DNA from: Planctomycetaceae bacterium
GTDB taxonomy: Bacteria > Planctomycetota > Planctomycetia > Pirellulales > Pirellulaceae
NCBI GenBank assembly: GCA_007121535.1
Contig: SKKK01000068.1
Span: 1-42,871 of the forward strand
Direction: 5' to 3'
Length of the DNA: 42,871 bases
The stretch's first letter is position 1, and each line of letters starts with the position of its first letter. Shown in pieces: positions 1,356 through 31,189 of this stretch. Below the pieces are notes generated by a model. The model was not told where the DNA came from, made no database searches, and saw only the letters and a list, made by a program, of their open reading frames with translations. Position numbers and translations under genes: made by a program.

Positions 1356-3362
1356 CTACGGGGACGAAATCGTGATCGACTTGGGGCCATCCTCCCAGAT
1401 ATACCCCGCAAGTTCGACGGCGGTCACCGTGAACGTGACGCTATTGATCCTGCGGTGAATCTGGTCGCTCTGGAATAGCGCTGGGGACTCGATGGTTTCG
1501 GTTTTACCATCACTCCACGTCCCCGTCACCAAGGCGCCTGTCAGTTCAGTGCCATCCTCTTTGCTGACGGTCACCGTGACGCTGGCTTGCCAGTGATTGC
1601 GGCCGACGAAGATGCTGGGAGACTCCGTGAATTGGATGCTCATCTTCTGGGGTTGCAGAGGCTCATCGTTCTGAACCCAGACTTCGATACTGTCCTCGGC
1701 CGATGCGCCTCCGACGTCTGTGGCGACCGCCCGAATCGTATATGGGCCGTCAGGAAAATCTTCCGTTGGGGTATCCCAAGTCGCGGACCAGAGGTCGTCG
1801 CCAAGGTCTTCTCCGGTCCGTTCCAGAATGACCTTTCCCTGATCTCCTTCGATGAAGAACGTCACCGCTTGAATACCCAAGGGTGAAGTCGCCTCGGCAG
1901 TCACAGGGACGTTGTTCCCGGAGACGATCAAGTCGGCAGGTTCCACGATTGTCACCTGAATGCCTGGTTCGTCAGTGATCGGACGCAGGATGACCAGCTC
2001 GGTTCTCCCGTCCGGCAGTTGGTCATGGCTGAGGAAAATCTCCCCGTTGTCTGTGATTCGCTGGGCACCTAATCGTCCCAGCACTTCTGGCAAATTCTCA
2101 ATCAGCGGCTCAAGGTCTAGGAAACCGGTTTCGTCAGTATAGACGAAAGGAAGTTCTACTCCATCCCGGGTTACGTTCCCAATCGTATCGCCGTTACTAT
2201 TTATGTCTCGCGCCCAACCACGCGTCGTCTCTGTGGAGTTCACCAGATCAACCATCCCCACACCGTCGCTGTAGCGGAAAGCGGTAGTCTCATTAAGACC
2301 GTTCCAACCTATCCTCTTCTTATCCGAAGCTCCAACTACCTGACCCCAATCATTGATAGCACGAGAATATGAACGTCCCTTGTTCAATAGGCATCCCAGA
2401 TCTTCCATCTGCCCGTCCCCCGGTGACCAGCGAAACGCCCGCGTCGTGGACGAATCAATATAAGCCTCGCCGACGATTTGCCCCCAGTTATTCATTCCCC
2501 AGACAAAAACGGTCCCATGACCTAAGTCTCCAATGTCTTCAACAGTGTAGCTCTTATTTTCTTCGTCGTAGCGCGCGTACAAGCCGCGCGTTTCTGGCTC
2601 TTGCGGTTGGGGCCGGTACGATATGGCAAGATCTCTACTATCGTTCGTAGCTATTACTCCCAGGATTCGTATGGCATCCCACTCAATACCTGATTCGTGG
2701 GCTTCTAATAGTGGTTGAAGGTCGACAATACTCAGTTGGGGACCTTGTTCTGCATCTGGATCAATCGTGATCCAAATCATCGTCGAGGTGGCCCTTTCGT
2801 ACCTTCCTTCACTCTCGGAGTATAAATAGGACCGGGCGTGGCCTACCATTTCTCGATGAGCGTTGATATCTCGAATGCTCATAATCTTCCACGCACGGCC
2901 AGCCTCGCCCTTTATGATTGGATAACGCATCCAGGTTCCATCTGGAAGTTCGGTCACCGGCCATTTCTCGCGATCGACCAGAGTTCCCCAAGTAGCGATG
3001 CTTTCGACATAGCCCGATGTGTCTAGACCGCTTGGTGAGTTGAGATAACGAAACGCAACAACCTGCACATCCACACCCTCTTCCCAGGCCGCCGAATCGC
3101 CCTCCTGGAAATCTACCGACACCAACTTTCGTCCGCGACCAACCGCGTCCCCGAAGGAATTAATTCGAATTCCGTAGGCAATATCGATGTCAAGGAACTC
3201 GTCGTCAGGGACTACCGTCTGCCATTGGTAGCTCGGCAACTCAGCGGCTGCTAGTTTTTGAGGCAGTCCAGGGGCGGCCGCCATCGTGACTGCTGCCACC
3301 ACCAGGAGGAGACGGCCCAGACCTATGTGAGACACGAACGAACGTTTCACGAACGCACACAT
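1356..3362 (-). CDS. Secreted HAF-repeat and Ig-like domain protein
   Basis: Exported protein of 668 residues, probably host. Residues 1-40 form a signal peptide: basic start, hydrophobic core LLLVVAAVTMAAA and a likely cut after KLAAA. The middle (about 265-420) has repeats of the extracellular HAF type, such as AFRWSPGDG and INDWGQVVGAS, which probably fold as short beta units. Residues 468-573 resemble a bacterial Ig-like domain (VTIVEPADL, WDTPTEDFPDGPYTIRA). Residues 574-668 resemble the Ser/Thr-rich beta domains found at the ends of bacterial secreted proteins. The ATG at 3362 is chosen over a longer open frame because AAGGAG lies 7 bases before it and the signal peptide begins there. 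Role unknown; likely cell surface or matrix. Confidence 0.85.
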   Translation of the reverse strand: MCAFVKRSFVSHIGLGRLLLVVAAVTMAAAPGLPQKLAAAELPSYQWQTVVPDDEFLDIDIAYGIRINSFGDAVGRGRKLVSVDFQEGDSAAWEEGVDVQVVAFRYLNSPSGLDTSGYVESIATWGTLVDREKWPVTELPDGTWMRYPIIKGEAGRAWKIMSIRDINAHREMVGHARSYLYSESEGRYERATSTMIWITIDPDAEQGPQLSIVDLQPLLEAHESGIEWDAIRILGVIATNDSRDLAISYRPQPQEPETRGLYARYDEENKSYTVEDIGDLGHGTVFVWGMNNWGQIVGEAYIDSSTTRAFRWSPGDGQMEDLGCLLNKGRSYSRAINDWGQVVGASDKKRIGWNGLNETTAFRYSDGVGMVDLVNSTETTRGWARDINSNGDTIGNVTRDGVELPFVYTDETGFLDLEPLIENLPEVLGRLGAQRITDNGEIFLSHDQLPDGRTELVILRPITDEPGIQVTIVEPADLIVSGNNVPVTAEATSPLGIQAVTFFIEGDQGKVILERTGEDLGDDLWSATWDTPTEDFPDGPYTIRAVATDVGGASAEDSIEVWVQNDEPLQPQKMSIQFTESPSIFVGRNHWQASVTVTVSKEDGTELTGALVTGTWSDGKTETIESPALFQSDQIHRRINSVTFTVTAVELAGYIWEDGPKSITISSP

Positions 3363-3511
3363 CGGACAACTCCTTTCGAAGTCGCGGCCTGCGCGGTGAG
3401 AGAAATGGCGCGCGGTCCGAGGCGCAGGCCCCATGACCCGGCCGCGCGCCGCTTGTGCTCCCGTTCTTTTGGCCCCCAACAAAACCTTTCGCTGTTCGGC
3501 ACCGGTTCCGC

Positions 3512-3570
3512 GTTCGGCGCGGGTCTCCGACCCCGCCGAAACCGCCGACCGTAGGTCTCCCAACCCAGTT
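3512..3570 (-). repeat. 58-bp dispersed repeat, copy B (inverted)
   Basis: Reverse-complement partner of 1152-1209, about 90% identical with one gap. It lies about 150 bases upstream of the secreted-protein start, so the gene sits between two inverted copies. No transposase is seen nearby, so a mobile unit is not supported. Confidence 0.75.
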
Positions 3571-3619
3571 CTGTTAGCGCCTCGTCGCAATCCTCATCCG
3601 TCCACCTCCATCGAAACCC

Positions 3620-3841: not shown

Positions 3842-4096
3842 GTGATTTTACGCACCAAAGTGTTAAATCCAATTCGTTTATTTGACTATGAACCACCCAG
3901 ATTGACCGTTCGGTACGGGGCCTGTGCGGCGGCGGTGGTTCCGCGTGCGTTGCGAGCCTCTGGTCGGTCAGAGTTCCGATGGATCACAAAAAAAGAGGAC
4001 GGAAGGCGTGTCTTTGCCATCACCACGCCCAACGTCGCCAAGCGGCGGGCGATCATGGCCGGGAACGATCACGTTTGCAAGGAGACGGCAGTCTGA
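3842..4096 (+). CDS. Doubtful 84-residue ORF at the junction
   Basis: Plus-strand open frame starting at GTG, with a strong AGGAGG at 3824-3829. The spacing of 12 bases is longer than usual. No family is recognised; the C-terminal half (KKEDGRRVF to the end) is basic. It converges with the sulfotransferase-like gene and overlaps its last 28 bases. It may be a remnant of a host gene cut by integration, or chance. Confidence 0.2.
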   Translation: MILRTKVLNPIRLFDYEPPRLTVRYGACAAAVVPRALRASGRSEFRWITKKEDGRRVFAITTPNVAKRRAIMAGNDHVCKETAV

Positions 4097-4722
4097 GTGA
4101 TCTTCGGTCGCTGCCACCCAAACCTTTCCACATCATCACCACAGACCTGCCCGACAGCTTCAATCGCTTCCGGCGTCCATACGGGCATTTCAACATCGGG
4201 CGTCTGATTCACCTGAGGCAGTTCACAGGCAGGCAGTCCCAGACTGGCCGTGACCGCATCCCAGTCCTTCAACGCATCGTACCGGATCGGTTCCACACCC
4301 AGATTCCGACCGCCGTCGGTACACCAGGTGCGCCAATAGCCGCCTCGAATGCGGCTGTAGCGGGGGTCGCAGATCTCGCGGTGGACGAACGCCTCGAAGC
4401 CCGGTTCATCTCGCATCCGCTCGAGCCTGCCACGCCAGCCGGGCGCCAAGCGTGATCGCAGGGCGCCGGCCTGGAGGTCTCGAAGCGTGAGCCGATAATC
4501 GCTCAGTACGATATCCCAGGGAGAGCGGGCGATCGCCCAGCGTCGCAGCTCGGGCCAGAGGTCGCTCAGCCGTTGCTGTAAGCTAACGGCCTTCATGTGA
4601 CGACCTGAGGTTAGATCAACGAAGCAATGTGACGACACGCTGGCCAGGGCCCGTGTAATCGCCACGCCGGCGGTGCGGGGAATGTGGATGAACACGTAGC
4701 GATGGTGGAGGTCGTAGATCAT
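4069..4722 (-). CDS. Sulfotransferase-like protein
   Basis: Predicted to move a sulfate group from PAPS to a glycan or other hydroxyl. The 217-residue protein starts with a strand leading into HIPRTAGVAITRAL, which fits the 5'-phosphosulfate-binding loop of sulfotransferases (HIPKTAG type). The segment ARSPWDIVLSDYRL fits the 3'-phosphate-binding Arg/Ser motif. The ATG at 4722 overlaps the stop of the glycosyltransferase (ATGA), so it is translationally coupled. It is the last gene of the four-gene cassette and of the whole late operon. Acceptor unknown. It could be inactive or use another donor, since the first motif has R where K is common. Confidence 0.75.
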   Translation of the reverse strand: MIYDLHHRYVFIHIPRTAGVAITRALASVSSHCFVDLTSGRHMKAVSLQQRLSDLWPELRRWAIARSPWDIVLSDYRLTLRDLQAGALRSRLAPGWRGRLERMRDEPGFEAFVHREICDPRYSRIRGGYWRTWCTDGGRNLGVEPIRYDALKDWDAVTASLGLPACELPQVNQTPDVEMPVWTPEAIEAVGQVCGDDVERFGWQRPKITQTAVSLQT

Positions 4723-5636
4723 AGCCGGACTCCAATGCGTTGCAGATCCAGGTTCGATTCGCCCAGCCAGCACAAGGCGATGGCCCGTTTGCAACCTTCC
4801 CCGATGTACCAACGATCACGCTGGCGATACACGTGAAACGGCTCCGCCGTCGCATAGATGCCGTCGATTCCCAGTTCGCAGAACTCCTGGATCTTGGTCC
4901 ACGCGGCACCGGACGGTTGACGCTTGGTCAGTTCCCGCACGACGTCAGCTACGGACGCATGCTTGACGCTGGCCCAGCCGAGCAGCTCGGCCAGGCCGAT
5001 CCCATCGCCCTGGTTGTTGCCCGGGCTGTGGTACGGAAAATGAATGTTGTCAAAGGGCACCAGTATCCTCGACGGATCGTAGGTCCCCGGCCCGACTGTG
5101 GTGACCACGTAGGGTTTGCACACGTCGGGACGGGCAAATCGCCAGAACATCCAATCGATGTTGCAAATCTCCTCGGCGGCCAGGATACGTTCGATTGCTG
5201 GCAGCGTCACATAGCTGCAGGCGAAACACGTCCAATCGGGACCATCTGGTGTGCCGGCGAACTTCTGTGAGCGTTCCGGGTGCCTGGCGATGGCGGACGC
5301 GATGGTGTCCAGGGCACTGCGGTCAGCCGGTACTGCATCGTCCTCGAACACCAGAATGCCCGCAGCATCGGGGTGCGTATCCAGGGCCGTTCTCAGCAGC
5401 CGCAGGTGTCCGAAGGTCACAAAAATCCGCGGCAGCCAGTACTGCGGGATGATACGCACGACCTTGCCGACGGCGTGAGTGGTGATACAATCTGCCATCG
5501 AACTGGCGTCGGCATAATCACGGTAGTCGTCGCCGTGGACATACTCGTGTGACAGACCGGGCCAAGCGGCTTCGAATTGGCGCCTTCGATCTATCGAGCG
5601 AGCGATGGTCAGAACATACGTGGGTGGGAGCGTCAC
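4719..5636 (-). CDS. Glycosyltransferase, GT25-like
   Basis: The 305-residue protein opens with YVLTIARSIDRRRQF, like the N-terminus of GT25 (LPS-type) glycosyltransferases that begin with a short strand and an Arg-rich loop. FEDDA (97-101) fits the metal/nucleotide-sugar acidic motif. The start is GTG at 5636, overlapping the stop of the upstream fusion gene (GTGA) with CAGGAG upstream; earlier in-frame codons would lie deep inside that gene. The last 60 residues (YIGEGCKRAIALCWLG) look unlike a GT and recall a ParB-type nucleotide-binding fold. Sugar and acceptor unknown; in this context probably a virion or surface glycan. Confidence 0.65.
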   Translation of the reverse strand: MTLPPTYVLTIARSIDRRRQFEAAWPGLSHEYVHGDDYRDYADASSMADCITTHAVGKVVRIIPQYWLPRIFVTFGHLRLLRTALDTHPDAAGILVFEDDAVPADRSALDTIASAIARHPERSQKFAGTPDGPDWTCFACSYVTLPAIERILAAEEICNIDWMFWRFARPDVCKPYVVTTVGPGTYDPSRILVPFDNIHFPYHSPGNNQGDGIGLAELLGWASVKHASVADVVRELTKRQPSGAAWTKIQEFCELGIDGIYATAEPFHVYRQRDRWYIGEGCKRAIALCWLGESNLDLQRIGVRL

Positions 5637-7225
5637 GCGGCATTCTCCTGGAATGAAAAGACTCGTCCGGCAACTGGACACAGCACGGGAAGTCGGCTGA
5701 TCCGAGCGATGGCCCGGGCCAACCCCGGTTCGGACTCGACGTACAACTGGCACTTGCTGTTCCGATACTCGCGGGCCTTCCACCGGGCGACGGCCTCGGG
5801 ATCGCTCCGCAGAGCCGCATCGCGGTCTTTGGCGGAACCCGGCCACATGACCAGTTCCTGCCAGGTGACCCCCAGATGCCGCAAATGGCGAATGGTGGCT
5901 TCACGTTCAATGTCCGGCCTCGCTGTGATGATCATCCGCACGGGAGCACTGCGGGGCGTGTACAGCGGCAAGGCCGTGTGATTGGTCACGATGATGCCAT
6001 CCAGATCCCAGGCCGTGGTCGCCAGGTAGCCGCTGTTGGCCAGGTTCCATTCCAGGTAGTGCGGCGGCGGGAGCAAGGCGGCGATCAGATCCACGGCACC
6101 AGCGCCCTGGGGCGTACTGTAGACGGCACAGCGGATGATGGACTGCTTCCCGAAGTGCTGGCGGACCAGTTGCTCTCGCTGTCGCATCTGCAGGCCGTTG
6201 TAGACCGTGTCGTCGATCAGGACGATCGGGCCCAGCGGTAACGCCCCACGCAGGCGGGCACCCCGCCCGCAGTCTCGCACCCCGTCGGCCGACACACTGT
6301 ACAGAGGTCGGTGCAGATGACAGGCCAGCAGCGATGCGGGCAGCATCCCCGAGCGAGCTACACCCACCACGGCCGCCGTATCCTCTGGCAACTGGGTGCG
6401 GAGGTTCAACGTATCCGCCAGCAGTTGAGCCGTACTGATATAAGTGCCGCCGGGCAGGGTACGCAGCACTCGCGGGCTGCGCGCGGGGATCGACACCGTG
6501 GACGTCACGCGGTCACGCTCGGCCGTTGTGGGCAGCGGCAACCGTTCCTGCAGCCAATCACCGAAGCCGGTCCGCAACGCTCCATCACCGTAGCTGAGCA
6601 CCCAGCGTTGTCGGGCCACGCGGTCGATCCGTTCCCGCCAACCCGCCTGCAGCTTGCAGTCGCGGGTCGTCTGAGCCACGGCGTTGCAGTGGTGATTACC
6701 GTAAATGCTCTTGGCCACCAAACCCCGACGCCACCAATCAGCTAACTCCAGGAACTTCTGCCGCTGGTAGATGATCGGCACGTGGATATCGTAGTGCCGC
6801 GTGAGCAGGCCCGTTTCCCGCAAAGCCTGGTGTGTCGAACGGAGCAACTGATGCCAACCGCTCGTTCCCGTCCGCCACAGATCGCCGCGATAGTAATCGG
6901 GGATCGAGCGGATGTCGTAGTCCTTCAGTAGAATATAGTCGTCGTTCCAAAACGCGACCTGTTCGGTCACGTCGAGATGCTCGAATGCCCACTGAACTTT
7001 CAGTGCGATCCGGCTGGCCTTGGGCCCGCGAAATTCACGCCGATGGGCAAGTCGCACGCGGTCGTCTTCGCGGAGCCAAGCGGGCACGTGGCCCACGATC
7101 CACACGTGCCGGACTCCGAGGGCATGACGCCGGATACTGCGGAGCGCCATCCGCAACTCGATGTCCTGATGCTTGGAGCCACTGCCCAGGGGGAGCAAAA
7201 TGTCTATCGGTGCCTGCGATTTCAT
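5633..7225 (-). CDS. Stealth-like transferase / phosphoribosyltransferase / HAD fusion
   Basis: The 530-residue protein has three parts. Residues 1 to about 240 resemble Stealth-family sugar-phosphate transferases: IDILLPLG (7-14), ALRSIRRHA, and WNDDYILL (93-100), matching the FNDD box of that family. About 245-380 is a phosphoribosyltransferase: GVARSGMLPA (288-297) and the PRPP loop IVLIDDTVYNG (334-344). About 400-525 is HAD-like: DLDG (407-410), ITAR (433-436), YVES (495-498). ATG 7225 overlaps the methyltransferase stop (ATGA); the end overlaps the next start (GTGA). PRT plus HAD pairs are known from bacterial ribofuranosyltransferases, where PRPP donates ribose-5-phosphate and the phosphatase trims it; applying that here is inference. 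Confidence 0.75.
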   Translation of the reverse strand: MKSQAPIDILLPLGSGSKHQDIELRMALRSIRRHALGVRHVWIVGHVPAWLREDDRVRLAHRREFRGPKASRIALKVQWAFEHLDVTEQVAFWNDDYILLKDYDIRSIPDYYRGDLWRTGTSGWHQLLRSTHQALRETGLLTRHYDIHVPIIYQRQKFLELADWWRRGLVAKSIYGNHHCNAVAQTTRDCKLQAGWRERIDRVARQRWVLSYGDGALRTGFGDWLQERLPLPTTAERDRVTSTVSIPARSPRVLRTLPGGTYISTAQLLADTLNLRTQLPEDTAAVVGVARSGMLPASLLACHLHRPLYSVSADGVRDCGRGARLRGALPLGPIVLIDDTVYNGLQMRQREQLVRQHFGKQSIIRCAVYSTPQGAGAVDLIAALLPPPHYLEWNLANSGYLATTAWDLDGIIVTNHTALPLYTPRSAPVRMIITARPDIEREATIRHLRHLGVTWQELVMWPGSAKDRDAALRSDPEAVARWKAREYRNSKCQLYVESEPGLARAIARISRLPVLCPVAGRVFSFQENAA

Positions 7226-7836
7226 CGCTGTTCCTTGCGGGTCAGGCATGCTATCAGATTCCAGCGACCGAGGAGGTGGATCTCGGGTGTCTGGTCGAAT
7301 TCCCTGGTCAAGAAGTGGCTGAATTCGGACGCCGTCCATTCTCGTGTGTGCCAGCGATTGCCGGGTGGACCTTGCCGCTGTTGCCGTCGTGCTCGACGAC
7401 CGCGGTATTTGCGGCGAGCTACCAGTTCGCGTTCCGGAGTGGCGAGCACGAGATGTCGCCAGCGTCCGGCGTGGAAGTGCCGCAGGAGAGCCGCCGGATC
7501 GTCCAGGTGCTCGATCACGTCCACACATAGCAGCATGTCAGCGACGGCTGGTACGGGGACCACATCCCAGCGGCGATCGGGGAACCGCGCACGGAGCGAC
7601 GCCAGACGATAGTCCAGGTCTACTCCGAGCGTGTCGTAGCGAGCGAAGAATTTTACGAGCTTGGCGCCCGATCCGCAGCCCCAATCCAGTACGCTGGTGA
7701 TAGCTGGGTCTCGAGCTGCCAGTTGCGCGGCCCAGCGGTAGACGCGGGTCTGCGCGCCGTCGGTGACCGACAGCACAGCGGTACTTGCGCTACGTGAGCG
7801 ATATCCAGGGGGTAAGCAATAATTGTCTACGTTCAT
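7222..7836 (-). CDS. SAM-dependent methyltransferase, class I
   Basis: The 204-residue protein carries motif I as VLDWGCGSGAKLVKF, an acidic motif II in LGVDLDYRL, and CVDVIEHLDDP near motif IV, the set seen in class I methyltransferases acting on sugars or small molecules (UbiE/Methyltransf_11 type). The C-terminal half is basic. ATG 7836 overlaps the stop of the Ser-rich tail protein (ATGA), and its own stop overlaps the start of the fusion gene (ATGA). The context suggests O-methylation of a glycan; a DNA methyltransferase is unlikely because no DPPY/NPPY motif is present. Confidence 0.8.
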   Translation of the reverse strand: MNVDNYCLPPGYRSRSASTAVLSVTDGAQTRVYRWAAQLAARDPAITSVLDWGCGSGAKLVKFFARYDTLGVDLDYRLASLRARFPDRRWDVVPVPAVADMLLCVDVIEHLDDPAALLRHFHAGRWRHLVLATPERELVARRKYRGRRARRQQRQGPPGNRWHTREWTASEFSHFLTREFDQTPEIHLLGRWNLIACLTRKEQR

Positions 7837-9602
7837 CGCTGATAGGCGCTGCGGAGCCACCTTTCGTTTTCCAGGAATTGTGCCCGAGTCCGAGCGGGGA
7901 ATCGCTGGTGGGCGAAGCGTCGACGGATTCCGGTCAATCGCACCACGACTTGCATTGGCCGTTCGGGCTGGGCGGCCAGACGCAACCGGATCGCATCGCC
8001 GACAACTTTGGCGCCCACGACGACGGGTTCTTCCGGTACCAACCCGCACACCTGGATCGTTCCGTCTTCACAGACGGCTGCGAACTGGGGATCGATCGTG
8101 ATCAGCGTCTCTCGGTCGGAGATCGTCGCCGTGAACACGTCATCGAAGCGGACCTCCGGCATTTCCACGCTGGACAGGGCCACGTATCCGGTGTGGCTCC
8201 AGTCGGCTGGTACGATGGCGTTCTTGTCCGACTCGTAGGAGGGATAGCTGTCGTCATCGCTGTCGTCGCTTTCGTCGTCGCTTCCCGACTCCGATTCGCT
8301 GTCGGATTCCGATTGCGATTCCGAATCCGATTCGCTTTGTGAGTCGGATTCGCTTTGTGACTCAGATTCCGAGTCGGAATCGGATTCGCTTTGCGACTCG
8401 GATTCCGATTCACTGTCCGATTCGCTCTCGGACTCGCTCTCCGATTCACTGTCCGATTGGGATTCCGATTCCGACGGGCTGTCCGATTCCGACTCAGCGG
8501 GGCAGCAATCGCCAATGGTCACGATCTCCCACTTTTCCGAATCCGCGAAGTACTTGGCGATGCCGCAAGCACCGGCCGGAATACTGTCGCTGGACGCCTC
8601 CCAGATCTTCCGCAAGCCCACCGAATCGTAGACGATGAACAACAGACTGACCGGCGACCAGCCGTCTCCTGTCCACAATCGCAACTGAGCCAAAGCCGAA
8701 CCGCAGGGCGTCAAGTTCTCCACCAGCACGAACCGCCAGTGATCCTCGTATCCGCCCATCACCTGCCAGCGGGCTTCCTGCTCGTCGAACAGACACCAGA
8801 CCCAATCGTTGTCGCCAAACTTCATCGGCCAGACACCTTGGGACTGGTGCAAAGTTCGCACGGCTGTCCGCGTTCCCGGCGGATAGCCTGTCATGTGCCA
8901 GACCGTGACCGTCGGCTCCTGGGCATCCGCCGCGTAGACACTGCCGTTGGCATAGTAAAACACCGGACGACAACCGGGCATTTTGGCCCAGCCGACCGGT
9001 TCGTCGGGCGACTGGCCCACGTGCCAGTGGCTGGATGGCAGTCGGAACACGGCCATCCGTGGACGGTCGCCCAGCCGGACCACGGCCCAGCGAAGTCCCG
9101 TGCCGGGTTCCTTCCACAGGATGCGGGCCGTGCCGTAAGGGACACTACGAAGAGCAGACGACTCTCCCGGTGCGATCTCCGCGAACTGGTCGCTTTCCCG
9201 GATGACATTGACCTGCACCGGAGTCACGCCGGACACGACTGCTCGTCCGATGGCGCCGGAACGTAGCGGATCGACCAGCACGCACCAGCGTTGCGACTTC
9301 GCCTCGGCGGTCGGCTTGCTCCCTTCCAGATTCACCTGATTCTTGAACTGCTGCAGGTTGTCGCTGGCGGTGACAATTGGCTCGGTCAAGGCCAGCACGG
9401 CGAACCGAGCCAAGTCGTCGCTACTCGTATTGCGGACCTTGATGATCCCCGTCTGCCGAAACTCGGCCCCCGCTTCTCGGAGCACGTCGTGCTGGCTGGC
9501 CCGCTGCTGGCGCGCGGCATCGATGAACGCGTTGTAAGCCTCGGCCGGGATCTCCAGCCGCCCGCCGCGTTGGACCTTTTTCAAAGGATCGCCCGTGGTC
9601 AT
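7833..9602 (-). CDS. Distal tail protein with Ser/Asp/Glu/Gln repeat stretch
   Basis: Virion protein of 589 residues. The N-terminal 370 residues form an ordinary globular sequence that begins [20 protein letters not shown] and is rich in Trp and Tyr. Residues 370-457 are almost only Ser alternating with Asp, Glu or Gln, ending in a [11 protein letters not shown] acidic tail. A short C-terminal domain (458-589) follows. By position, after the tape measure and another tail protein, it should be a tail tip or fibre component. The acidic Ser stretch could be a flexible linker, a Ca2+-binding segment, or the acceptor for the glycan enzymes whose genes follow with ATGA coupling. No family recognised. 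Confidence 0.7.
8232..8495 (-). repeat. Ser-acidic dipeptide-coding repeat
   Basis: Short degenerate hexamer repeats (GAT/GAG/CAG followed by TCC/TCG/AGT-type codons) code for residues 370-457 of the tail protein. Codons vary while the Ser-X pattern is kept, so selection acts on the protein rather than the DNA. Such tracts are prone to length change by slippage. Confidence 0.85.
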
Positions 9603-9605: not shown

Positions 9606-10391
9606 TCAGACTCCAATTCCCAATCCGGCGAAGTTGCCCGCTGGATAGACCTGCTCCACGTAAACGGCGATCGGCCGCTTGACCAGCACATGCTCGTCTT
9701 CATCGTCGGCGTAACGGACCCAGAGGTACTCCCAGCCTTTCTTGTTGATGCCTTCGATGTCGCCGACTTTCAGCCCGCTCACATTCGGACTGGCGGCAAA
9801 GCGGAACGTGATCTCCCAGGCGTCCTTGCCTCGCTTGGCTCCGGAGGCTCCCAGGAACAAGACCTCGCCCGCAGCAAAGCCTTTGAACACCGCCTGGTTC
9901 GTGCGTCCCGTGAGCATGAACAGAGTCAGCTTGTAGGCCCCGGTGACCAAGGCACCCGGAATGCGATGCGTCTCGCTGAAGGAATACACGGGCACGGTCA
10001 CATCGGTGCCTTCCACGCTGTCCGTGCTGACCCCGATGGCGCCTTTGAAGTCCGGCGCCGTCTCGCCCGCTGGAGCATACTTGCCTACGGTCTGCAGACT
10101 CTGCGTGATGTGCGTGGTGCCGCCGCTGGTATCGAACGTGAATTCCGACTCATCAGGCTCACGGCTGCTATAGCGAGCAGTGACATCCCAGATCCCATTG
10201 CCGCTAGGATCGAGGCGATATTCAAGGAACGGCAGACCCGCGTAGAAGGCGGGGATCGTGCCTTCCACCAGCGCTCGCACGACGGCGTCGTCCTGCGTGC
10301 CCTGGACCACGTACACCAGATCCACCGAGGACTGTTGTGTGCCTTCGGTGGTTTCCCGGCTGTCGAATTTCTCGAAGATCTTGACTGCCAT
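9606..10391 (-). CDS. Tail-associated protein following the tape measure
   Basis: The 261-residue protein is mostly beta by its alternating pattern (DLVYVVQGTQDD, WDVTARYSS, WEITFRFAA). It follows the tape measure gene with a TGATG overlap of one base and precedes the Ser-rich tail protein with a 3-base gap. By synteny it is a distal tail or baseplate component. No catalytic motif is seen and no family is recognised. Confidence 0.65.
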   Translation of the reverse strand: MAVKIFEKFDSRETTEGTQQSSVDLVYVVQGTQDDAVVRALVEGTIPAFYAGLPFLEYRLDPSGNGIWDVTARYSSREPDESEFTFDTSGGTTHITQSLQTVGKYAPAGETAPDFKGAIGVSTDSVEGTDVTVPVYSFSETHRIPGALVTGAYKLTLFMLTGRTNQAVFKGFAAGEVLFLGASGAKRGKDAWEITFRFAASPNVSGLKVGDIEGINKKGWEYLWVRYADDEDEHVLVKRPIAVYVEQVYPAGNFAGLGIGV

Positions 10392-13300
10392 CAGCTAAAC
10401 GCCAGCCCTCCGTCTTGAGCTTCCTTAACCAATTGCTTCGTGTTCTGGGCGATCTGCTCGGAAGCCTTGGCCGTGCGCTCGGCCAGGCTGCTGGCCCCCA
10501 GACCCCGGATGGCCATCGCATTGAACGTGCCCTGGATCTCGCCCGCTCCGATGCCTCGACCCACGCCCGGCAAGTCACCCAATCCGCCGCCGGCCTGGTC
10601 GACCTTTTGCTGGGCCGTTTCGCTGTCAAACAGCTCTCGTTTCTGCTTGGCTTCGGCCAGCGCCGCATCGAGTTCCTCGCGGGCCTTTTGCAGGGCCGAC
10701 TTGCCATCGGCAGCGGGTGTTTCGGGCAATCCGGCTGTCTGCTCGAGTCGCTGGCGAGCATCTTCCGCCGCCCCTCGCGCGTCCTCGATCGCCGCATCCG
10801 CGTTCTGGCGAGCGTCGCTGGCCACCCCGCCCCAATAGGCCCCCACGGCGCCCTGGGCGTCGCGTGTGGCGTCCTGAACGATCCGCTTGGCATCTTCGGT
10901 CGCGGTCCCCAAGGGGCCCGACAGGGCGCCCAATTCGCGGCGAGCTTGGGCGATCTGGGCCGTGAGTTGTTCCACCTCCGCCGCATCACCGGTCTCGGTG
11001 GCGATTTGGAGCTTGTCTTCCCACTGGCCGATGGTCCATTCCAAGTTCCGCTGGACGACCTCGCGGCGTTCCCGTTCCAGTTGTTGGGATCGAGCATCCT
11101 CGGCCCGCATGTCCACGCCGATCAGCTTGCGGGCCACGGCCCCGGCAGCTCCGTCTTGGGCGGCCAAGTCCAGCAGGCTGTTGGCCAAGCTTTGCACCAT
11201 TCCGGACCACATGCGGTGCACGGCGATGACCACGCCGGCGAAGGCCTCGATCATGGCCGCCTTGAGCCCGTTCCAAATCTCGGACAGTTTGGCCACACCC
11301 GTGAGCCAGGCGGCTTCCAGGCCGCCCATCACGATTTGGCCCGCCGCTTCCCAGTCGCCCTCCGAGATAGCTTTCGTCAGACCGCCGAAGACGGTCCGGA
11401 AAATACCACCCAACTGTCCGAACAGGTCACCGACCATCGCGCCCAGATAGGTGCCCAGACTGCCCAGCGCCGTGCCCACTGTGGACAACGGGCCAGATAT
11501 AAAGGATGGAACGCGGGCCCAGATGCCCTGCAACCAGCCCATCAGGCGGCTCGCCCCCTGGCGAATGTAAGACCAGACGTGGTTTGCCGCCGCCGCGATA
11601 CTGGGCCAGACTTGACGAACTTGCTCGGCGCCCTGGAAGAAGACGACTTTCAGTCCGGACCAGAGGATCCGCGCGGCCAGACGGACGTCACCGGCTGCCA
11701 AAGCGGCTGAGATCCCGCCGACAACCTCTCTCACAATGGCCCACAGTTCGCCGAGAGCCTGGCCCACGATATTTAACCCAGCGCGCCCCGACTCGCTGAA
11801 TCTCGTCCAGGCGTACACTGCGCCGCTGACCGCCGCCACAACCAGTCCCACTGGGGAAACGATGGCCGCCAGCGCGGTGCCGACGGCGCCCAAAGCTGTG
11901 AGTACCAACGGCGCAGCCATCAACAACGGCGCCAATGGTCCGCCGATGCTGGCCCCAAGCACCCCGGCCAGTGAGCCCAGGCTGCCCACCGCTCCGGCCA
12001 TGCGTCCGCCGGCGCCGCGCGCCCCCGCTCCGATGCGTCCCAACATGCCGGTCCCGGCCGCCCGCAAGCGAGCGAAGGTCGCCAAGCCGACCGACCGCAC
12101 TGTGGCAAACGCGCTGATCATGCTGGTCCGCAGGGAGCGACCCAGCGCCGGCCCGAGAGTGATCCAGGCCGCTCGAATCCGCTGCACAGCGCCCATTGCC
12201 GCGGTGACGATACGTCCGAAATCCTGCTGCGCCATGCCGGCCACCTGCGCCAGGGGGCCACGCACCCAGGTTGGCAGACGGAGCCAGGCTGCGGAGACGC
12301 GGGCGACAGCTTGACGCCCGATCTGCTGGACGCGGGACATCGCGGCGTTGAATGGCCCGGTGACCCGCGAACTGGTCTGCTGCCAACGGGACTGCACGGA
12401 TGCAGTAACCGACGACCAGGCAGACGCAACCCGACCGGCGGAAGCCGATGCTCGCTGTTGGAGTTGCTGCCAGATGCCACCGACTCGGGAGCTCATGGCT
12501 TGCCAGGCAGTCGTGGCTCGGGAGCTGACCGTCTGCCAGCTTGTGGACATGCGCTGGGTAAACGACGTCCACGCGGCGTTCAAGCGAGCGATGGCCGGCG
12601 CCGCTGCAATAGCGATACGCGCGAAACCCGCGTTAACCGCGCCAGTAATCATCGGCGCCAAAGCTCGTGCATACTGCCCCAGACGAGCCAGTGCGGCTCG
12701 TCCCGCTCCCAGCAAATACGGCAAACTCGAAGCGGTAGCCGCCACCGTCCGGCGAACGACCTGGACCGTCAGCCCGGATAACTGGCGGACGATGCCGCTG
12801 GCGACACTTCTGATGGCCACGGCCGCGCGGGCTGCTGCGCTAACTGCGGTGTTACCCAGCGACACGAAAGCAGCACCGGTGATCTTCACCAGCCCGGGGA
12901 GTCCTTTGAGCGGCAGTGCCAATCGCAGCAGCCCCGCTCGGAGTGTGCTCACCACCCGCAGCGCCCCGGAAAACGGGGCCAGCAAAGTGCGACCAGTCGT
13001 GCTGGCCGTCAACGCGAGACCAGCCCAAATCATGCCCAGCCCGCCCAGTGCCCAGGCCAGCGCAGAAGCCATCGCTCCCACCGCCACCAGCGAACCGCCT
13101 ACCGCCGTCATGACAGCCGCCGCCAAGACGGCTCCGATCACCCAGCGTCTGTTGGCCGAAATCCACTGCGTGATACTGCCCAGCAGCGTGGTGACGAGCG
13201 GTTCCAGGCGTTGCAGGGCCGGCGCCAGTGCATCCCCAATGGCGATCGCCACGCCCTCGGCGGCAGACAAGATCCGGCGAAACGTACCGCCCAATCCGGA

Positions 13301-14275
13301 CTCCATCTCCTTGTGCGTGCGAGCTGCCACACCGTTGGCGCTGGCCAAGGCGTCGCGTAATTCCCGCACGTTTACAGCGTTCTTGCTTAGAGCCGAGGCG
13401 CCGGTGATGCCCAGCAATCCGAACGCCTCGTTGAACTTCTGTGCTCGGGCAGCCGTTCCCAGGTTGGCAGTCGCCTGATTCACTTCGTCGAGTACATCTA
13501 CCAGAGGCCGCGCATTGCCCTGCATGTCCACAAAGCTGACACCGAAGATGTCGCGCAGTCTCTCGGCTTGGGCTCCGCTGATCGTCAACAGACGCCGCAG
13601 CGCCGTACCGGCATTACTGCCTTGAATGCCGACGTTGCCCAAGGCGCCCAACAGAGCCAGCGTATCCTCGATCGACATGTTGAAGTCACTGGCGACCGGA
13701 CCGGCGTAAGTCAGCGAGTCGCCCAGGGATTCCAGCGTATTGAAGCTCTTGTTGGCTGCCACGGTCAGGGCGTCGGCGACTCGGGAAGCATCACCGGCCT
13801 CCAGCGAGAACTGACGGATCGCAGCCGCCATGATGCCAGAAGCGGCCGTCGCATCCGTGGACGTGGCTCGTGACAGGTCCAGCACGCTGGCCGTCATCCG
13901 GTCGATCTGATCGGGCGAGAAACCGGCCCGTCCCAATTCGGTCATCAACGAGGCCACTTGGGCCGAGGTAAAGCTGGTCGTCCGTCCCAGTTCCTGAGCC
14001 GTCGTTCGCAATCGCTGGAACTGTTCGTCCGTCGCCTCGGTCACAGCTTTTACCGTCCGCATCTGGTCGTCAAAACCGGCAAACACCTTGGTCGCGAATG
14101 CCAGGGGCGCCCCCAGACCGGCGCCCAATGCCAACAGTGGTCGTCCCAAGGCTCCCACACCGGAGGCAAAACCCCGCAAGCGGGCCGAGACGCGGGCCAA
14201 CCCTGCCTGAACGCGATCGCGCAGCGCGATCTCGACGTAGGCTTTTCCGGCTCGAACTTCCCGACCAGCAGCCAT
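10391..14275 (-). CDS. Phage tail tape measure protein (TP901-like)
   Basis: Scaffolds tail-tube assembly and sets tail length; ejected with the DNA. At 1294 residues it is the longest gene in the window. Residues 60-260 match the TP901 core type: FAGFDDQMRTVKAVTEA, LGRTTSFTSAQVASLM, LSRATSTDATAASGIM and FNTLESLGDSLTYAGP. Long Ala/Arg helices, several hydrophobic segments (about 375-420 and 770-860) and a Glu/Ala/Arg coiled coil (about 1090-1230) follow, all usual for this family. ATG 14275 comes 4 bases after the upstream gene. If about 1.5 angstrom per residue applies, the tail would be near 190 nm, consistent with a siphovirus; no contractile sheath gene is seen. Confidence 0.93.
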   Translation of the reverse strand: MAAGREVRAGKAYVEIALRDRVQAGLARVSARLRGFASGVGALGRPLLALGAGLGAPLAFATKVFAGFDDQMRTVKAVTEATDEQFQRLRTTAQELGRTTSFTSAQVASLMTELGRAGFSPDQIDRMTASVLDLSRATSTDATAASGIMAAAIRQFSLEAGDASRVADALTVAANKSFNTLESLGDSLTYAGPVASDFNMSIEDTLALLGALGNVGIQGSNAGTALRRLLTISGAQAERLRDIFGVSFVDMQGNARPLVDVLDEVNQATANLGTAARAQKFNEAFGLLGITGASALSKNAVNVRELRDALASANGVAARTHKEMESGLGGTFRRILSAAEGVAIAIGDALAPALQRLEPLVTTLLGSITQWISANRRWVIGAVLAAAVMTAVGGSLVAVGAMASALAWALGGLGMIWAGLALTASTTGRTLLAPFSGALRVVSTLRAGLLRLALPLKGLPGLVKITGAAFVSLGNTAVSAAARAAVAIRSVASGIVRQLSGLTVQVVRRTVAATASSLPYLLGAGRAALARLGQYARALAPMITGAVNAGFARIAIAAAPAIARLNAAWTSFTQRMSTSWQTVSSRATTAWQAMSSRVGGIWQQLQQRASASAGRVASAWSSVTASVQSRWQQTSSRVTGPFNAAMSRVQQIGRQAVARVSAAWLRLPTWVRGPLAQVAGMAQQDFGRIVTAAMGAVQRIRAAWITLGPALGRSLRTSMISAFATVRSVGLATFARLRAAGTGMLGRIGAGARGAGGRMAGAVGSLGSLAGVLGASIGGPLAPLLMAAPLVLTALGAVGTALAAIVSPVGLVVAAVSGAVYAWTRFSESGRAGLNIVGQALGELWAIVREVVGGISAALAAGDVRLAARILWSGLKVVFFQGAEQVRQVWPSIAAAANHVWSYIRQGASRLMGWLQGIWARVPSFISGPLSTVGTALGSLGTYLGAMVGDLFGQLGGIFRTVFGGLTKAISEGDWEAAGQIVMGGLEAAWLTGVAKLSEIWNGLKAAMIEAFAGVVIAVHRMWSGMVQSLANSLLDLAAQDGAAGAVARKLIGVDMRAEDARSQQLERERREVVQRNLEWTIGQWEDKLQIATETGDAAEVEQLTAQIAQARRELGALSGPLGTATEDAKRIVQDATRDAQGAVGAYWGGVASDARQNADAAIEDARGAAEDARQRLEQTAGLPETPAADGKSALQKAREELDAALAEAKQKRELFDSETAQQKVDQAGGGLGDLPGVGRGIGAGEIQGTFNAMAIRGLGASSLAERTAKASEQIAQNTKQLVKEAQDGGLAFS

Positions 14276-22946: not shown

Positions 22947-24992
22947 TTACACTTCTCCCTTGCAGCGGATTCCCGCCCGTGGATCTTGGAGACTCACACC
23001 AAAATCATGAAATCCCCGCATTTGCACACCGAGCACATTGAAATCGGCTTCGGCCGTCTCAATGGTCGGCGACTCCTGGCCGTTGAGGAACGCGACTTCG
23101 ATCACCGGCAGATCGTTGGGATCGGCCAACAGATACCAGGCCTTGGCCGAGTGCCCCGTGTAGACGCTGTTGGACAGGTAGCGGCTGACTTCTACGCGGA
23201 ACTTACCCTGATGCGGGTTGTTCACGGGATACTTCGTGTTGGCCGTGGTCTCCCGCAACTCCATCGACTTGTAGAGCTGCGTGGCCAGGGCCGACAGCGC
23301 CGTGGGCACCAGCATGATGGTTGGCATGATGCCGATCGGCTTGCCGTCCGAATCCACCTGATCCATGAAGGCCACTTCGGCGCCCGTCAGGCCGTCGATC
23401 GACAAGGCCGTATCGGCGCCCTCCAGGTAGTTTTTGTTGGCCGTCTTGAAGAAGGCATTGTTCTTCAGGAACGTGGCCCAGAAGATGTCGTTGATCTTCA
23501 GGCCCGAGCCCCGCCCCAACTTCCGCGGCACCGTGGTGATCGCCCCCAGGTCGTCGTTGATGATGTCCCGACGATCGATCGCCAGCATCAAGCCGTAGGT
23601 GTCGGCCTTGTTGGTGTAAGTCTCGTTGCCGAGCGTACCATGCTTCAGTTCTCCGCCTGGCGCCACCACTTCGTACTGATCCTTGCCGATCAGCCGGTAG
23701 CTGGTGACCGTCTTGAAGTCGCTCACGTTCCGGGTGGCGCAGATGTTCCGCCACACCCGTTCCACCGAGAAGAAGCCTTCCAGCAGGAACTTGTTGGCCA
23801 CGTTGGATAGAATCCCGCCGATGTCGATGGTCGAGAACCCGGCCTCCAGGTCCGGACGGAAGGCAAACCGCAGCACGGCGCGAGCATCGCGGAAATTGCG
23901 TCCCGTGAAACCGTGGGCCCAGGCCGCTTCCAACAGCAATTCCTGCAGACCGATCGAACCTCGGAAACGGCGATCAGCGGCTTCCAAAGCGGGCTCGGCC
24001 ACTTCCTGTTCCAGGTTCTGCAGCCCGGCCGAGAGCAAGCAGGCGGCTTCCAGCACGGCTGCCGTCACGTTGTTGTCCCGGAAGTGAGCGGCCGGCGCCT
24101 TGGGGCGGCTGGTTCGCAATACTTGCAAAGCGCATTGATCGGGAGCCCAGCCATCACGGATCGCCTGGGCTTCGATCTCCGCGTACTGGCCATTGCACAG
24201 TTCGCGGATACGAGCGATCCGAGCGGATTCGGCCAAGGCCTCGGCTCGTACCTGCTCGGCAGTCGGCCCGGCCTGGATCGGTGCCGGTTGCTGGGCCGAC
24301 GCCGTTTCGGTCGCCTGATGGGGATTGGCTGCTGTCGCCGGTTGCTGTTCCGGCCCGACTGGTTGATTTCCTGCCATCGTTAGTTGCTCCTGCGGTAAGT
24401 TGGCCGCGACGTGGGCGGAGGTCTGTCCGTCGGCGCCCAAGTCCACGAAACTGATCTCGCCCAGAGTGGCTTTCCGGATCACGTGCACCGGGCCTTCAAA
24501 ATCCCGACCATTGACGATCGTCTTCTGCTGGGCTTTCACGAACTCGAACTCTTCCACGGCGGCGCCGATCGAGGCCTGCCACGGAAAACCATTGCGAGCG
24601 GAAATCACGATCTCGCGCGCCGCAACCGTATCTCGCGACACCACGCCCGCCGCCAGCAGCTTGCCGTCCTCCACGCGAATCGAGCGCGTGTGGCCCACGC
24701 CACTGGCCATATCATGTCCAAAGCGGATCGGCCGGCTTTGGGAGGGGATCTCCAAACCACCCAGGTCCACCACGACCGGATGACGCCAGCCGGCGATCCG
24801 CATCAGTCCGCCCGTATACGCGACCATGTTGAATTCCGGCAGCTTGGGTTTGCCGTCAACCACTTCATCCACGGCACTGGCTTCGATCTGAATGCCGCCC
24901 GGCTCGCTCAACAGATTGATGGAGCCGGTCAGCTTCACTCGGCCGGGAGATTCACTGGGCAACGGGTTAATGGTCGTCGACAACTGAGGCAT
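22947..24992 (-). CDS. Prohead protease fused to Mu gpT-like major capsid protein
   Basis: The 681-residue protein joins two usually separate genes. Residues 1 to about 200 match the prohead protease type: FGHDMASGVGHTRSIRVEDGKLLAAG with H93, and FPWQASIGA with S141, a plausible Ser-His pair. Residues about 205-290 form a Gln/Ala/Pro-rich linker, possibly acting as scaffold. Residues about 300-681 resemble Mu gpT-like capsids (TTVPRKLGRGSGLKINDIFW, PVNNPHQGKFRVEVS, SAKAWYLLADP). ATG 24992 has GGAGGAG upstream and overlaps the portal end by 26 bases. The protease presumably cleaves itself off during prohead maturation. Mature capsid should be about 40 kDa. Confidence 0.88.
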   Translation of the reverse strand: MPQLSTTINPLPSESPGRVKLTGSINLLSEPGGIQIEASAVDEVVDGKPKLPEFNMVAYTGGLMRIAGWRHPVVVDLGGLEIPSQSRPIRFGHDMASGVGHTRSIRVEDGKLLAAGVVSRDTVAAREIVISARNGFPWQASIGAAVEEFEFVKAQQKTIVNGRDFEGPVHVIRKATLGEISFVDLGADGQTSAHVAANLPQEQLTMAGNQPVGPEQQPATAANPHQATETASAQQPAPIQAGPTAEQVRAEALAESARIARIRELCNGQYAEIEAQAIRDGWAPDQCALQVLRTSRPKAPAAHFRDNNVTAAVLEAACLLSAGLQNLEQEVAEPALEAADRRFRGSIGLQELLLEAAWAHGFTGRNFRDARAVLRFAFRPDLEAGFSTIDIGGILSNVANKFLLEGFFSVERVWRNICATRNVSDFKTVTSYRLIGKDQYEVVAPGGELKHGTLGNETYTNKADTYGLMLAIDRRDIINDDLGAITTVPRKLGRGSGLKINDIFWATFLKNNAFFKTANKNYLEGADTALSIDGLTGAEVAFMDQVDSDGKPIGIMPTIMLVPTALSALATQLYKSMELRETTANTKYPVNNPHQGKFRVEVSRYLSNSVYTGHSAKAWYLLADPNDLPVIEVAFLNGQESPTIETAEADFNVLGVQMRGFHDFGVSLQDPRAGIRCKGEV

Positions 24993-26436: not shown

Positions 26437-26437
26437 C

Positions 26438-26635
26438 TCAGGACACTCCAGGGGGAACGAAGCGATTGAACCGCAACCCGCGGTGCTTCTTCTTGACGGC
26501 ATCTTTGGCCGCCAGATGCTTGTCCGCCGCGATCTGGTCCGACAGCTTGTGCTGCTCGACGCTGCCAGCATCGCCAGAGGCCTTGGCGGGCCCTTGGGCG
26601 TTTTGGCGGATCGTGTCGTCGAAGTTATCGGCCAT
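26438..26635 (-). CDS. Small head protein upstream of portal
   Basis: The 65-residue charged helical protein (MADNFDDTIRQNAQGPAKASGDAGSVEQHKLSDQIAAD, ending RGLRFNRFVPPGVS) resembles a small gene often found before lambda-type portals, in the place of gpW-like joining proteins. ATG 26635 has GGAAG upstream; an ATG at 26668 is possible. Its stop precedes the portal TTG by 1 base. A joining or accessory role is inferred from position. Confidence 0.65.
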   Translation of the reverse strand: MADNFDDTIRQNAQGPAKASGDAGSVEQHKLSDQIAADKHLAAKDAVKKKHRGLRFNRFVPPGVS

Positions 26636-26845: not shown

Positions 26846-27082
26846 CTAAACGGTAGCTTTGGAGGATACAGCTCGATCAGCTGTAACCCGCTGGTCACCC
26901 TCGATCGACCTTCCCACCGCACTTTCGAACGTCAGTACCTTCCGCCCACAGTAGCGACACACCTTCCGCCGACGAATTCGTCCATCCCGTAGCGGTTCGG
27001 TGTGCGTCGTTTGGAAATGCCGACAACCACAAGAAGGACAACAGATCCCGAGCTGATCGCGGCTTGGTTTGGTCTTGGTCAT
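26846..27082 (-). CDS. Zinc-ribbon protein coupled to terminase
   Basis: The 78-residue protein has C15-x2-C18 and C42-x2-C45, framing a basic hairpin (RDGRIRRRKVCRYCG), so it should bind one zinc and probably nucleic acid. It resembles the zinc finger of NrdR-like regulators but lacks an ATP-cone. ATG 27082 overlaps the terminase stop (ATGA) with GGAGG upstream, which hints at a packaging or late-regulation role. Confidence 0.75.
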   Translation of the reverse strand: MTKTKPSRDQLGICCPSCGCRHFQTTHTEPLRDGRIRRRKVCRYCGRKVLTFESAVGRSIEGDQRVTADRAVSSKATV

Positions 27083-29969: not shown

Positions 29970-30341
29970 ATGACCGTCAACGAAGTCTTGAACCTGCTGG
30001 AACAGATGGCCGAGGCCGGATACGGAGATCGCGAGGTGCTGGGGTTGCTGATGGCCAAGATCCCCGGTTCGCTCTTGCGACGAGGGGGGCTGACGGCTGG
30101 CGCCAGTGCCGGGCCCCTGGCAATCCTCGGCATTTGGCGCAATCCCGCCCGGATCCTGGTGATTCGGCGCGGCAAGCCCCTGCACTTCGGACAGACCAAG
30201 CACGGGTTCTACTTCGCCAGCCTGCCAGAAGGATTGCCGGGTCAGGTCCAGGCGGTGGTCGATCACTACACCGGCCTGCTGACCCAGGACAACGGATTGC
30301 GGATCGCGCGGACCTCGTTCGGACGACTTCGGGCAGCGTAG
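29970..30341 (+). CDS. Phage protein of unknown function (123 aa)
   Basis: Starts MTVNEVLNLLEQMAEAGYGD, then a Gly/Leu-rich core (LLRRGGLTAGASAG) and LVIRRGKPLHFGQTKHGFYF. GAGGAG lies 8 bases upstream of ATG. It follows the 81-residue gene by 30 bases and is followed by a spacer with the second promoter-like element. No motif recognised. Confidence 0.7.
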   Translation: MTVNEVLNLLEQMAEAGYGDREVLGLLMAKIPGSLLRRGGLTAGASAGPLAILGIWRNPARILVIRRGKPLHFGQTKHGFYFASLPEGLPGQVQAVVDHYTGLLTQDNGLRIARTSFGRLRAA

Positions 30342-30501
30342 CCGTGGGGCCACCGGTGGTACACGTTCTGCCGTGTGGGCCTGGGCGGGACCGGCGGGAT
30401 TTTCGTTCCCACTCCCCACCGAACGCGACACGGGCCACACGGGGCGACCTGGGGCCCACCGAAAATTCTGGGAATTCCGGCAGCTTTTTTCTGAATCCCG
30501 C

Positions 30502-30530: not shown

Positions 30531-30575
30531 TGTGTTATAGGCAATCAACGAACTACCAACCAACGGAGAAACGCG

Positions 30576-30818: not shown

Positions 30819-30848
30819 CCAACCTAACAACCACCGAGGAGAATGACC

Positions 30849-31178: not shown

Positions 31179-31189
31179 GACCCACCACG

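Follow-up and report, generated by a model that had tools for sequence, protein, structure and literature searches.

In the published account of Bcs3 from Haemophilus influenzae type b (Hib), CriT adds ribofuranose-5-phosphate from phosphoribosyl pyrophosphate (PRPP) to the chain, the HAD enzyme CrpP dephosphorylates the added sugar, and CroT attaches ribitol phosphate (PMC10299916). A like two-step logic is described for the gPRT-PRP enzymes (PMC11127046), and the pairing of a phosphoribosyltransferase (PRTase) with an HAD enzyme is, as these two sources present it, an established route to ribofuranosylation (PMC10299916, PMC11127046). Here we describe a locus in which such a pair lies close to a virion gene. 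The window, as we call the whole stretch of 42,871 nucleotides that was analysed (contig SKKK01000068.1 of the Planctomycetaceae bacterium assembly GCA_007121535.1; C637 in our numbering of this 9.3-Mb assembly in 706 contigs), carries five tightly joined genes that close the late operon of a tailed phage and adjoin host-type genes. Phage-encoded glycan enzymes are here genetically linked to the gene of a serine-rich (Ser-rich) virion-type protein, and we consider it likely that the locus is a virion-decoration cassette whose enzymes coat the Ser-rich stalk in the cytoplasm. In reading order, the five genes are:

7833..9602, minus strand: P0001, Ser-rich virion-type protein and presumed acceptor, 589 aa
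7222..7836, minus strand: P0002, class I S-adenosylmethionine (SAM) methyltransferase, 204 aa (Methyltransf_23, 1.3e-9)
5633..7225, minus strand: P0003, Stealth-like/PRTase/HAD fusion, 530 aa
4719..5636, minus strand: P0004, GT25-like glycosyltransferase, 305 aa, GTG start (weak profile match)
4069..4722, minus strand: P0005, sulfotransferase-like protein, 217 aa (PHROG galactose-3-O-sulfotransferase, 2.2e-5)

The observed basis of this proposal is the gene order, the domain content, the predicted folds of the P0001 anchor and the PRTase, the association of glycan enzymes with Ser-rich proteins in relatives, and the lack of multi-spanning membrane proteins. The association was read from relatives of the 365-aa N-terminal part of P0001, which matched 43 of the 296 genomes of the order (its own included) and was found on 35 viral contigs and on a further 40 from named genomes, of which 36 bear planctomycete names. 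The N-terminal domain lay in 118 fetched loci, many of them metagenomic fragments; four places had been fetched twice, leaving 114 distinct loci. These formed 81 clusters at 80% identity, and after dropping 20 clusters with less than 1,500 bases downstream, 61 remained. Gene calls were home-made, with tail genes forced and start choices rough. We counted a cluster as Ser-rich if the tail protein or the next gene had at least 16 Ser in any 50 residues, a density reached by 37 of 123 tail-family genes as against 12 of the 1471 other called genes of at least 80 aa in these loci; ten of those 12 sat one to three genes behind a tail gene. A glycan enzyme was present among the next five genes in 17 of 21 Ser-rich clusters compared with 5 of 40 others (Fisher p = 1.8e-7, kinship ignored). 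With the window left out and the threshold moved from 12 to 30, the p value stayed between 1.7e-8 and 2.9e-6. Because the hidden Markov models for the enzymes were seeded mostly from Ser-rich loci, we ran a second scan, against Pfam, that covered all downstream proteins from 100 aa upwards. Among the 70 proteins of the Ser-rich clusters, which include one host-type window gene admitted by the gap rule, the best 25 of 41 families included GT2 (15), GT4 (8), Sulfotransfer_3 (5), radical SAM (5), FkbM (4), GT25 (4) and Mannosyl_trans3 (3); among the 126 proteins of the other clusters, the best 25 of 69 families included Methyltransf_23 (4), Pribosyltran (3) and GT2 (2). Hand-picked protein sets (A1, A2) gave the same picture as the systematic sets (A7, A8).

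The same link was found when sampling started from an enzyme. We searched IMG/VR with the GT25-sulfotransferase fusion of locus L129 (L numbers denote our loci), yielding 32 loci in 11 clusters at 90% identity. All 32 had a Ser-rich open reading frame (ORF) upstream. In 31 it lay on the plus strand within 4 kb; in L230 the distance was about 4.2 kb, and the product is a tail protein that reaches 33 Ser per 50 residues. The yardstick is the 12 of 1471 non-tail genes given above. By our own profile (1e-4), the anchor domain was detected in 25 of these loci and not in the other seven (L233-L239). In L233-L238 the Ser-rich ORF is 624-644 aa long and the query match covers the GT25 part only; in L233 and L238, the two that were read, the N-terminus and the gene upstream are both different. 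For L239, the sole candidate is a poly-Ser ORF of 148 aa whose coding score is poor. It is the Ser tract, and not simply the anchor domain, that the GT25-type enzyme accompanies.

While the tail locus stays, the enzyme sets behind the tail gene differ between phages and are non-homologous, as in the following loci:

L106, L107, L111: GT4, radical SAM and GT2 enzymes (Pfam for L106 and the L111 GT4, the rest by our own profiles)
L109: GT4, GT2 and FkbM enzymes
L097, L114: Mannosyl_trans3, fused to FkbM in L097
L129, L132, L136, L139: GT25-sulfotransferase fusion
L015: Ser-rich protein, Stealth-like gene, GT32-like gene (by eye) and methyltransferase

The radical SAM protein of the L106 cassette (11054-11815) lies between the GT4 and GT2 genes behind the Ser-rich tail gene. 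Viral contigs often carry a GT25-sulfotransferase fusion following a Ser-rich tail protein (L208-L232 as well as L129, L132, L136 and L139), with four such loci (L209, L214-L216) in IMG genome 2824432718 alone, and several single-contig genomes hold two tail-domain loci. A related group (L084, L085, L086, L089, L096, L100) has a tail gene, a methyltransferase, a protein of about 300 aa, which in L089 is MptE-like below the cut-off, and a separate Ser/Gly-rich protein. The latter reads like a Hint domain; Hint_2 matches two of the scanned set, and the L089 protein has no Pfam match. Directly behind the Ser-rich tail gene in L119, L127, L129 and L230 lies a gene for a small Cys/His protein (CPHL...C..AS...AC..C), and L015 has a like stretch joined to the front of its Stealth-like domain; this is possibly a docking module.

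Next, we characterized P0001, in which two regions can be told apart:

8247..8495, minus strand: Ser-Glu/Ser-Asp/Ser-Gln tract, about residues 370-452
9048..9602, minus strand: conserved N-terminal anchor domain, residues 1-185 (homologues and predicted fold)

Residues 368-468 contain 41 Ser, mostly in Ser-Glu, Ser-Asp and Ser-Gln pairs, compared with 30 Ser in the remaining 488 residues. P0001 thus holds a Ser-acidic dipeptide repeat tract of the Sdr/Sdg kind, and the NCBIfam ClfA/ClfB/Sdr models match this tract only (best 3e-13, far below curated cut-offs). Signals of a cell-wall adhesin were not found in P0001: it has no hydrophobic segment and, by eye, no LPXTG-type end, and its N-terminal domain is virion-type. 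A model of residues 1-365, built on 55 aligned sequences, had a mean predicted local distance difference test score of 76.5 and scores of 80-97 in blocks across residues 51-180. With VIA-align, which itself warns that Z below 8 can reflect a common arrangement, the predicted anchor fold matched a portal-capsid interface chain of Haloferax tailed virus 1 (HFTV1; Z 11.2), capsid entries of FCWL1 and T1 (9.4-9.5), Pam3 and Sf11 (8.8), E217 (8.4) and the phi29 head fibre (7.7-8.0), chains that we take to be decoration proteins. In BFVD, 14 anchor matches reached 0.001, mostly uncharacterised phage proteins and one named virion structural protein, and tail-fibre-like names occur among the lower-ranked matches. 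In its modelled fold, the N-terminal domain resembles capsid-decoration or head-fibre proteins. The preliminary description of this DNA had called P0001 a tail protein; a tail is suggested by its position behind the tape measure gene, but the predicted fold is of the head-decoration type, and on this model P0001 should rather be named a virion fibre or decoration protein.

Three domains are predicted in P0003:

6491..7225, minus strand: Stealth-like phosphotransferase domain, residues 1-245 (Stealth_CR2, GNPTAB)
6026..6460, minus strand: type I PRTase domain, about residues 256-400 (motif IVLIDDTVYNG and fold)
5651..6016, minus strand: HAD-type phosphatase domain, about residues 404-525 (motifs)

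The Stealth part matched only CR2 of the regions CR1-CR4 (1.2e-5; 25.9 bits against a Pfam cut-off of 39.4), GNPTAB chains (4.4e-5, phmmer against the PDB) and phrog_7999, a family without assigned function (2.3e-22). The PRTase part matched orotate PRTase (1.2e-4, phmmer against the PDB), and its fold is close to the purine PRTases HGXPRT and XGPRT (Z 15.7). Its relatives match PF00156, and all 11 of their PRTase rows retain the PRPP motif seen in P0003. Matches to gPRT or CriT chains were found neither by phmmer with the PRTase domain at E 0.1 nor among the fold matches listed. For the HAD part, the Arg, Lys and Glu-Ser motifs are invariant in 8 of 8 rows and DxDG is present in 7, the eighth row ending before it. 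A PRTase with its PRPP motif and an HAD domain with its DxD nucleophile are both present, the HAD domain by motifs and a weak PDB profile match (Pnkp1, 0.0084).

Because its two modules also occur apart, we regard P0003 as a fusion: L015 has a stand-alone copy of the Stealth part (55% identical), and tandem PRTase-HAD repeats lie behind the tail gene of L018 and L020, two loci without a Ser-rich tail. P0003 matched 14 of the 296 genomes at 1e-6 (its own and 13 partial matches), and the sole match in its own genome at 1e-3 was P0003 itself. Across 50,697 records of cultured phages, no PRTase-HAD protein was found at 1e-3, and relatives of the P0003 N-terminal part were found in 25 Mycobacterium and Gordonia phage records. 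In Mycobacterium phage Gaia (L039, 4209-6259), an annotated tail protein, a homing endonuclease, a relative of the P0003 N-terminal part and an annotated DNA methyltransferase occur together, an echo of the tail/Stealth-like/methyltransferase pairing in an actinobacteriophage. Chromosomal PRTase-HAD genes lie amid GT2, GT4, methyltransferase, sulfotransferase and Wzx-like genes in L146 and L147 and near Wzt-like and ABC-2 transporter genes in L148 (neighbours typed by Pfam for L146 and L148, and by eye and profile for L147). L152, another relative, has no polysaccharide cluster by eye, and in L002 a PRTase-HAD relative adjoins a GT25-like gene without a Pfam match. The relatives in host polysaccharide clusters make a glycan role likelier than a nucleotide role for the PRTase-HAD, suggest that it was captured from such clusters, and strengthen the case for ribosylation, which had earlier been raised as a possibility. 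On this analysis, PRPP-dependent ribofuranosylation by the cassette is probable.

A relative of P0002 (49.5% identical) is encoded alongside a Ser-rich tail and a Stealth-like gene in L015; a single-protein scan of IMG/VR, which finds close relatives only, returned none. P0004 has an EDDA motif and had no Pfam match at 0.1, hence it does not reach the curated Glyco_transf_25 cut-off. It aligned weakly with the GT25-sulfotransferase fusions (hhalign E 5.7e-4, probability 29%) and weakly by blastp (6.6e-4) with the L002 gene, itself without a Pfam match; because the profile match is weak, we call it GT25-like. No P0004 relatives were found at 1e-5 in the 245 other genomes of the order, and P0005 has distant relatives in five of them. 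P0005, with a relative in L202, gave no Pfam match at 0.1 and no PDB match at E 1; its HIPRTAG and ARSPWD motifs are presumably the 5' and 3' sulfotransferase phosphate loops. On another contig of the same genome (L207, G000:C183:24971-25042), near genes that read as NADH dehydrogenase-like, a stretch of 24 residues is 79% identical to the C-terminal part of P0005 and looks like a gene remnant.

The four junctions between the five genes are, as noted before and read again from DNA and translations, 4-base overlaps (ATGA, ATGA, GTGA, ATGA). These overlaps had been taken to mean that the enzymes are made with the virion, an argument that the comparison does not support: no gap separates the tail gene from the next one in 9 of 20 Ser-rich clusters versus 18 of 38 others, counts that are rough, as the gene caller put the first gap of the window at +56 where the DNA shows -4. 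We rejected the overlaps as a sign of a special link, since they are equally common in loci that are not Ser-rich, and overlaps alone are weak evidence. As for the expectation that the same four-gene block would follow tail genes in related phages, position together with function recurs, but the literal block was in no other fetched locus. A conserved four-gene block was rejected; the relatives of P0004 and P0005 among fetched-locus proteins were the window's own only (phmmer, 1e-3).

The tailed phage comprises the window from 4,069 rightwards, nearly all on the minus strand, and a 261-aa gene and the tape measure gene precede that of P0001. Its other assigned features are:

10391..14275, minus strand: tape measure protein, late operon context (phrog_1533, 9.6e-73)
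22947-24992, minus strand: capsid/protease (family match)
24967-26571, minus strand: portal (family match)
27079-29346, minus strand: terminase (family match)
38678-41065: exonuclease V/helicase-like

The tape measure, capsid/protease, portal and terminase matches are all on the minus strand, which confirms that the cassette lies on the late strand. By eye, the left end of the window holds host-type genes (a Ser/Thr kinase fragment at 1-1151 and a 744-aa ORF at 1356-3590), and the label prophage comes only from host-type and phage genes in one contig. A scan for promoters and terminators with E. coli-type consensus sequences, which may not apply here, found nothing above shuffles, and the lone promoter-like site found was on the strand opposite the cassette. 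Between the terminase and a DNA methylase-like gene (29970-32849), small plus-strand ORFs with coding-like codon use lie opposite the late genes.

Taken together, we propose that P0001 would be a virion fibre or decoration protein, attached to the particle by its N-terminal domain and offering its Ser-(Glu/Asp) tract as the acceptor stalk. The co-encoded enzymes would act on P0001 in the cytoplasm, before or during assembly. A short glycan or glycan-phosphate on its serines would be the product of the GT25-like and Stealth-like domains. Ribofuranose would result from two further activities, transfer of phosphoribose from PRPP by the PRTase and removal of the 5'-phosphate by the HAD domain, and the sugars would receive their caps from the methyltransferase and the sulfotransferase. 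The enzymes as a block would form a replaceable module, changing between phages at a tail locus that stays, and a swap would probably alter the surface charge of the particle, its adsorption or its recognition. The glycosylation of serine, the order of steps, the identities of the sugars and the benefit are what we infer. The earlier interpretation is retained in part: decoration enzymes lie among the late genes and would most simply be aimed at the Ser-rich virion protein, but the argument from overlaps falls away.

Several observations, beside the seeding of the enzyme profiles, weigh against this proposal. Four of the 21 Ser-rich clusters lack a glycan enzyme (L091, L164, L140 and L180, the last two with only about 2 kb of downstream sequence), and five clusters that are not Ser-rich have one (L126, L073, L018, L020, L120). 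On the anchor-domain tree, Ser-richness changes nine times and enzyme presence eight times; a phylogeny-aware test with five supported pairs gave 2.7 in the same direction and 1.0 in the opposite (sign test p = 0.625). We therefore rejected the locus association as a phylogenetically independent test, this being not significant, and keep the plain Fisher value with the warning that the association rests on few lineages. The Stealth part is poorly modelled, its Foldseek match to GNPTAB (4.8e-7) having a TM-score below 0.3. For the anchor, Foldseek matched nothing in the PDB at 0.001; its first-ranked entry was a yeast enzyme of no relation, followed by FCWL1 and the phi29 head fibre at 0.018-0.026. 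The GT25 and sulfotransferase assignments in the window are, as judged from sequence, weak. Finally, the host-type genes adjoin the cassette, a spot where lysogenic-conversion genes also sit, and Ser-rich tracts can be plain flexible linkers.

The enzymes might instead alter host surface glycans to block superinfection or change the coat, a lysogenic conversion to which the Ser-rich protein would be incidental. The place of the cassette at the phage end adjoining host-type genes fits this, as do the chromosomal PRTase-HAD relatives in host polysaccharide clusters, by which such enzymes could act on a host glycan. We nevertheless consider it unlikely, given the Ser-rich association in both sampling directions, the same placement in viral contigs, and the position of the cassette on the late strand with the sole promoter-like site found on the other. 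Multi-spanning membrane proteins were also missing: no membrane helix was predicted in the products of the five genes, and of the 70 downstream proteins in Ser-rich clusters none had more than one helix and three had one, including the host-type gene of the window (positive controls gave seven helices, for a host flippase, and three). We ran all 70 because the set of glycan enzymes alone (0 of 47, radical SAM included) cannot reveal a flippase. This absence is not decisive, as cytoplasmic transferases can also act on host glycans. Between virion and host surface, which the preliminary description had left side by side, the Ser-rich links in relatives, the anchor fold and the lack of multi-spanning proteins favour the virion, with the host surface as the less probable target.

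A narrower alternative concerns the PRTase-HAD, which could make a nucleoside-like small molecule or modified base unrelated to decoration; affecting one enzyme, it is compatible with virion decoration by the others. PRTase-HAD pairs occur in nucleoside-like metabolite systems, and purine PRTases are the nearest fold matches of the PRTase domain. We find this improbable for a protein fused to a Stealth-like domain among glycan genes, with relatives beside a GT25-like gene in L002 and in host polysaccharide clusters with sulfotransferase, Wzx-like or Wzt-like genes, although L152, by eye, has no such cluster. That the Ser tract carries no modification and serves as a flexible stalk or acidic spacer, with the enzymes acting on another virion protein such as the capsid or tail tube, we regard as quite unlikely. 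Ser-Gly tracts resemble linkers, and in mycobacteriophages such as Che8 the glycosylated protein reported is the major capsid protein (PMC11256854), but Ser-rich proteins accompany the GT25-type enzymes in L233-L239 too, loci in which no anchor domain was detected, and Ser-Asp repeats are known glycan acceptors in the SdgA/SdgB work (PMC3794999).

If virion decoration is true, phages over much of a bacterial phylum coat their particles with glycans of their own making that differ by lineage. The chemistry of a coat could then be read from the genes beside one fibre gene, and PRPP-dependent ribofuranosylation and sulfation would extend to virion proteins. The Ser tract would offer a defined acceptor for in vitro work, and a role of virion glycans in adsorption and recognition would be testable in cultured planctomycetes. 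A wider idea, which we hold tentatively and would sooner expect to fail than to stand in full, is that planctomycete phages share a general swappable coating: the Ser-rich fibre would become a sulfated, methylated and ribosylated proteoglycan-like brush, built by host-captured enzymes to mimic or evade host glycans, and the compact XGPRT-like PRTase-HAD would be a new class of PRPP-dependent ribofuranosyltransferase for protein-linked glycans.

We compared the cassette with known systems. Phage gtrABC seroconversion cassettes modify sugars, sit near a prophage end and include a membrane flippase and membrane transferases; the likeness is the place near the prophage end, and the difference is that neither a gtrABC-type flippase nor a membrane transferase was found, whether among the five genes or the 70 downstream proteins. 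Among the matches listed in a search of open-licence papers, none concerned Ser-rich fibres with glycosyltransferases in planctomycete phages. The gPRT-PRP enzymes and CriT/CrpP of Hib Bcs3 likewise have a PRTase and an HAD enzyme fused to or beside a glycan-acting transferase (PMC10299916, PMC11127046). The order described for Bcs3 is CroT, CrpP (HAD) and CriT, a PRTase with helical bundles (PMC10299916), whereas P0003 has a compact type I (XGPRT-like) PRTase ahead of the HAD domain. Staphylococcal SdgA/SdgB resemble the cassette in acting as dedicated glycosyltransferases on a Ser-acidic repeat tract; as reported, they modify bacterial cell-wall adhesins by stepwise addition of N-acetylglucosamine (PMC3794999), whereas the window has a phage virion-type protein and other enzyme families. 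Chloroviruses also bring their own glycan-building enzymes for the particle, but they are eukaryotic algal viruses with N-glycans on the major capsid protein. In actinobacteriophages such as Che8, phage-encoded glycosyltransferases are likewise thought to act on virion proteins, the acceptor described being the major capsid protein (PMC11256854); here it would be a Ser-rich fibre-like protein encoded directly upstream. The 25 Mycobacterium and Gordonia phage records with relatives of the P0003 N-terminal part add to the likeness, and the PRTase-HAD, sulfotransferase-like and methyltransferase genes mark the window's side of the difference. We read the cassette as a probable new form of two known kinds of decoration, virion glycosylation and Ser-repeat glycosylation.

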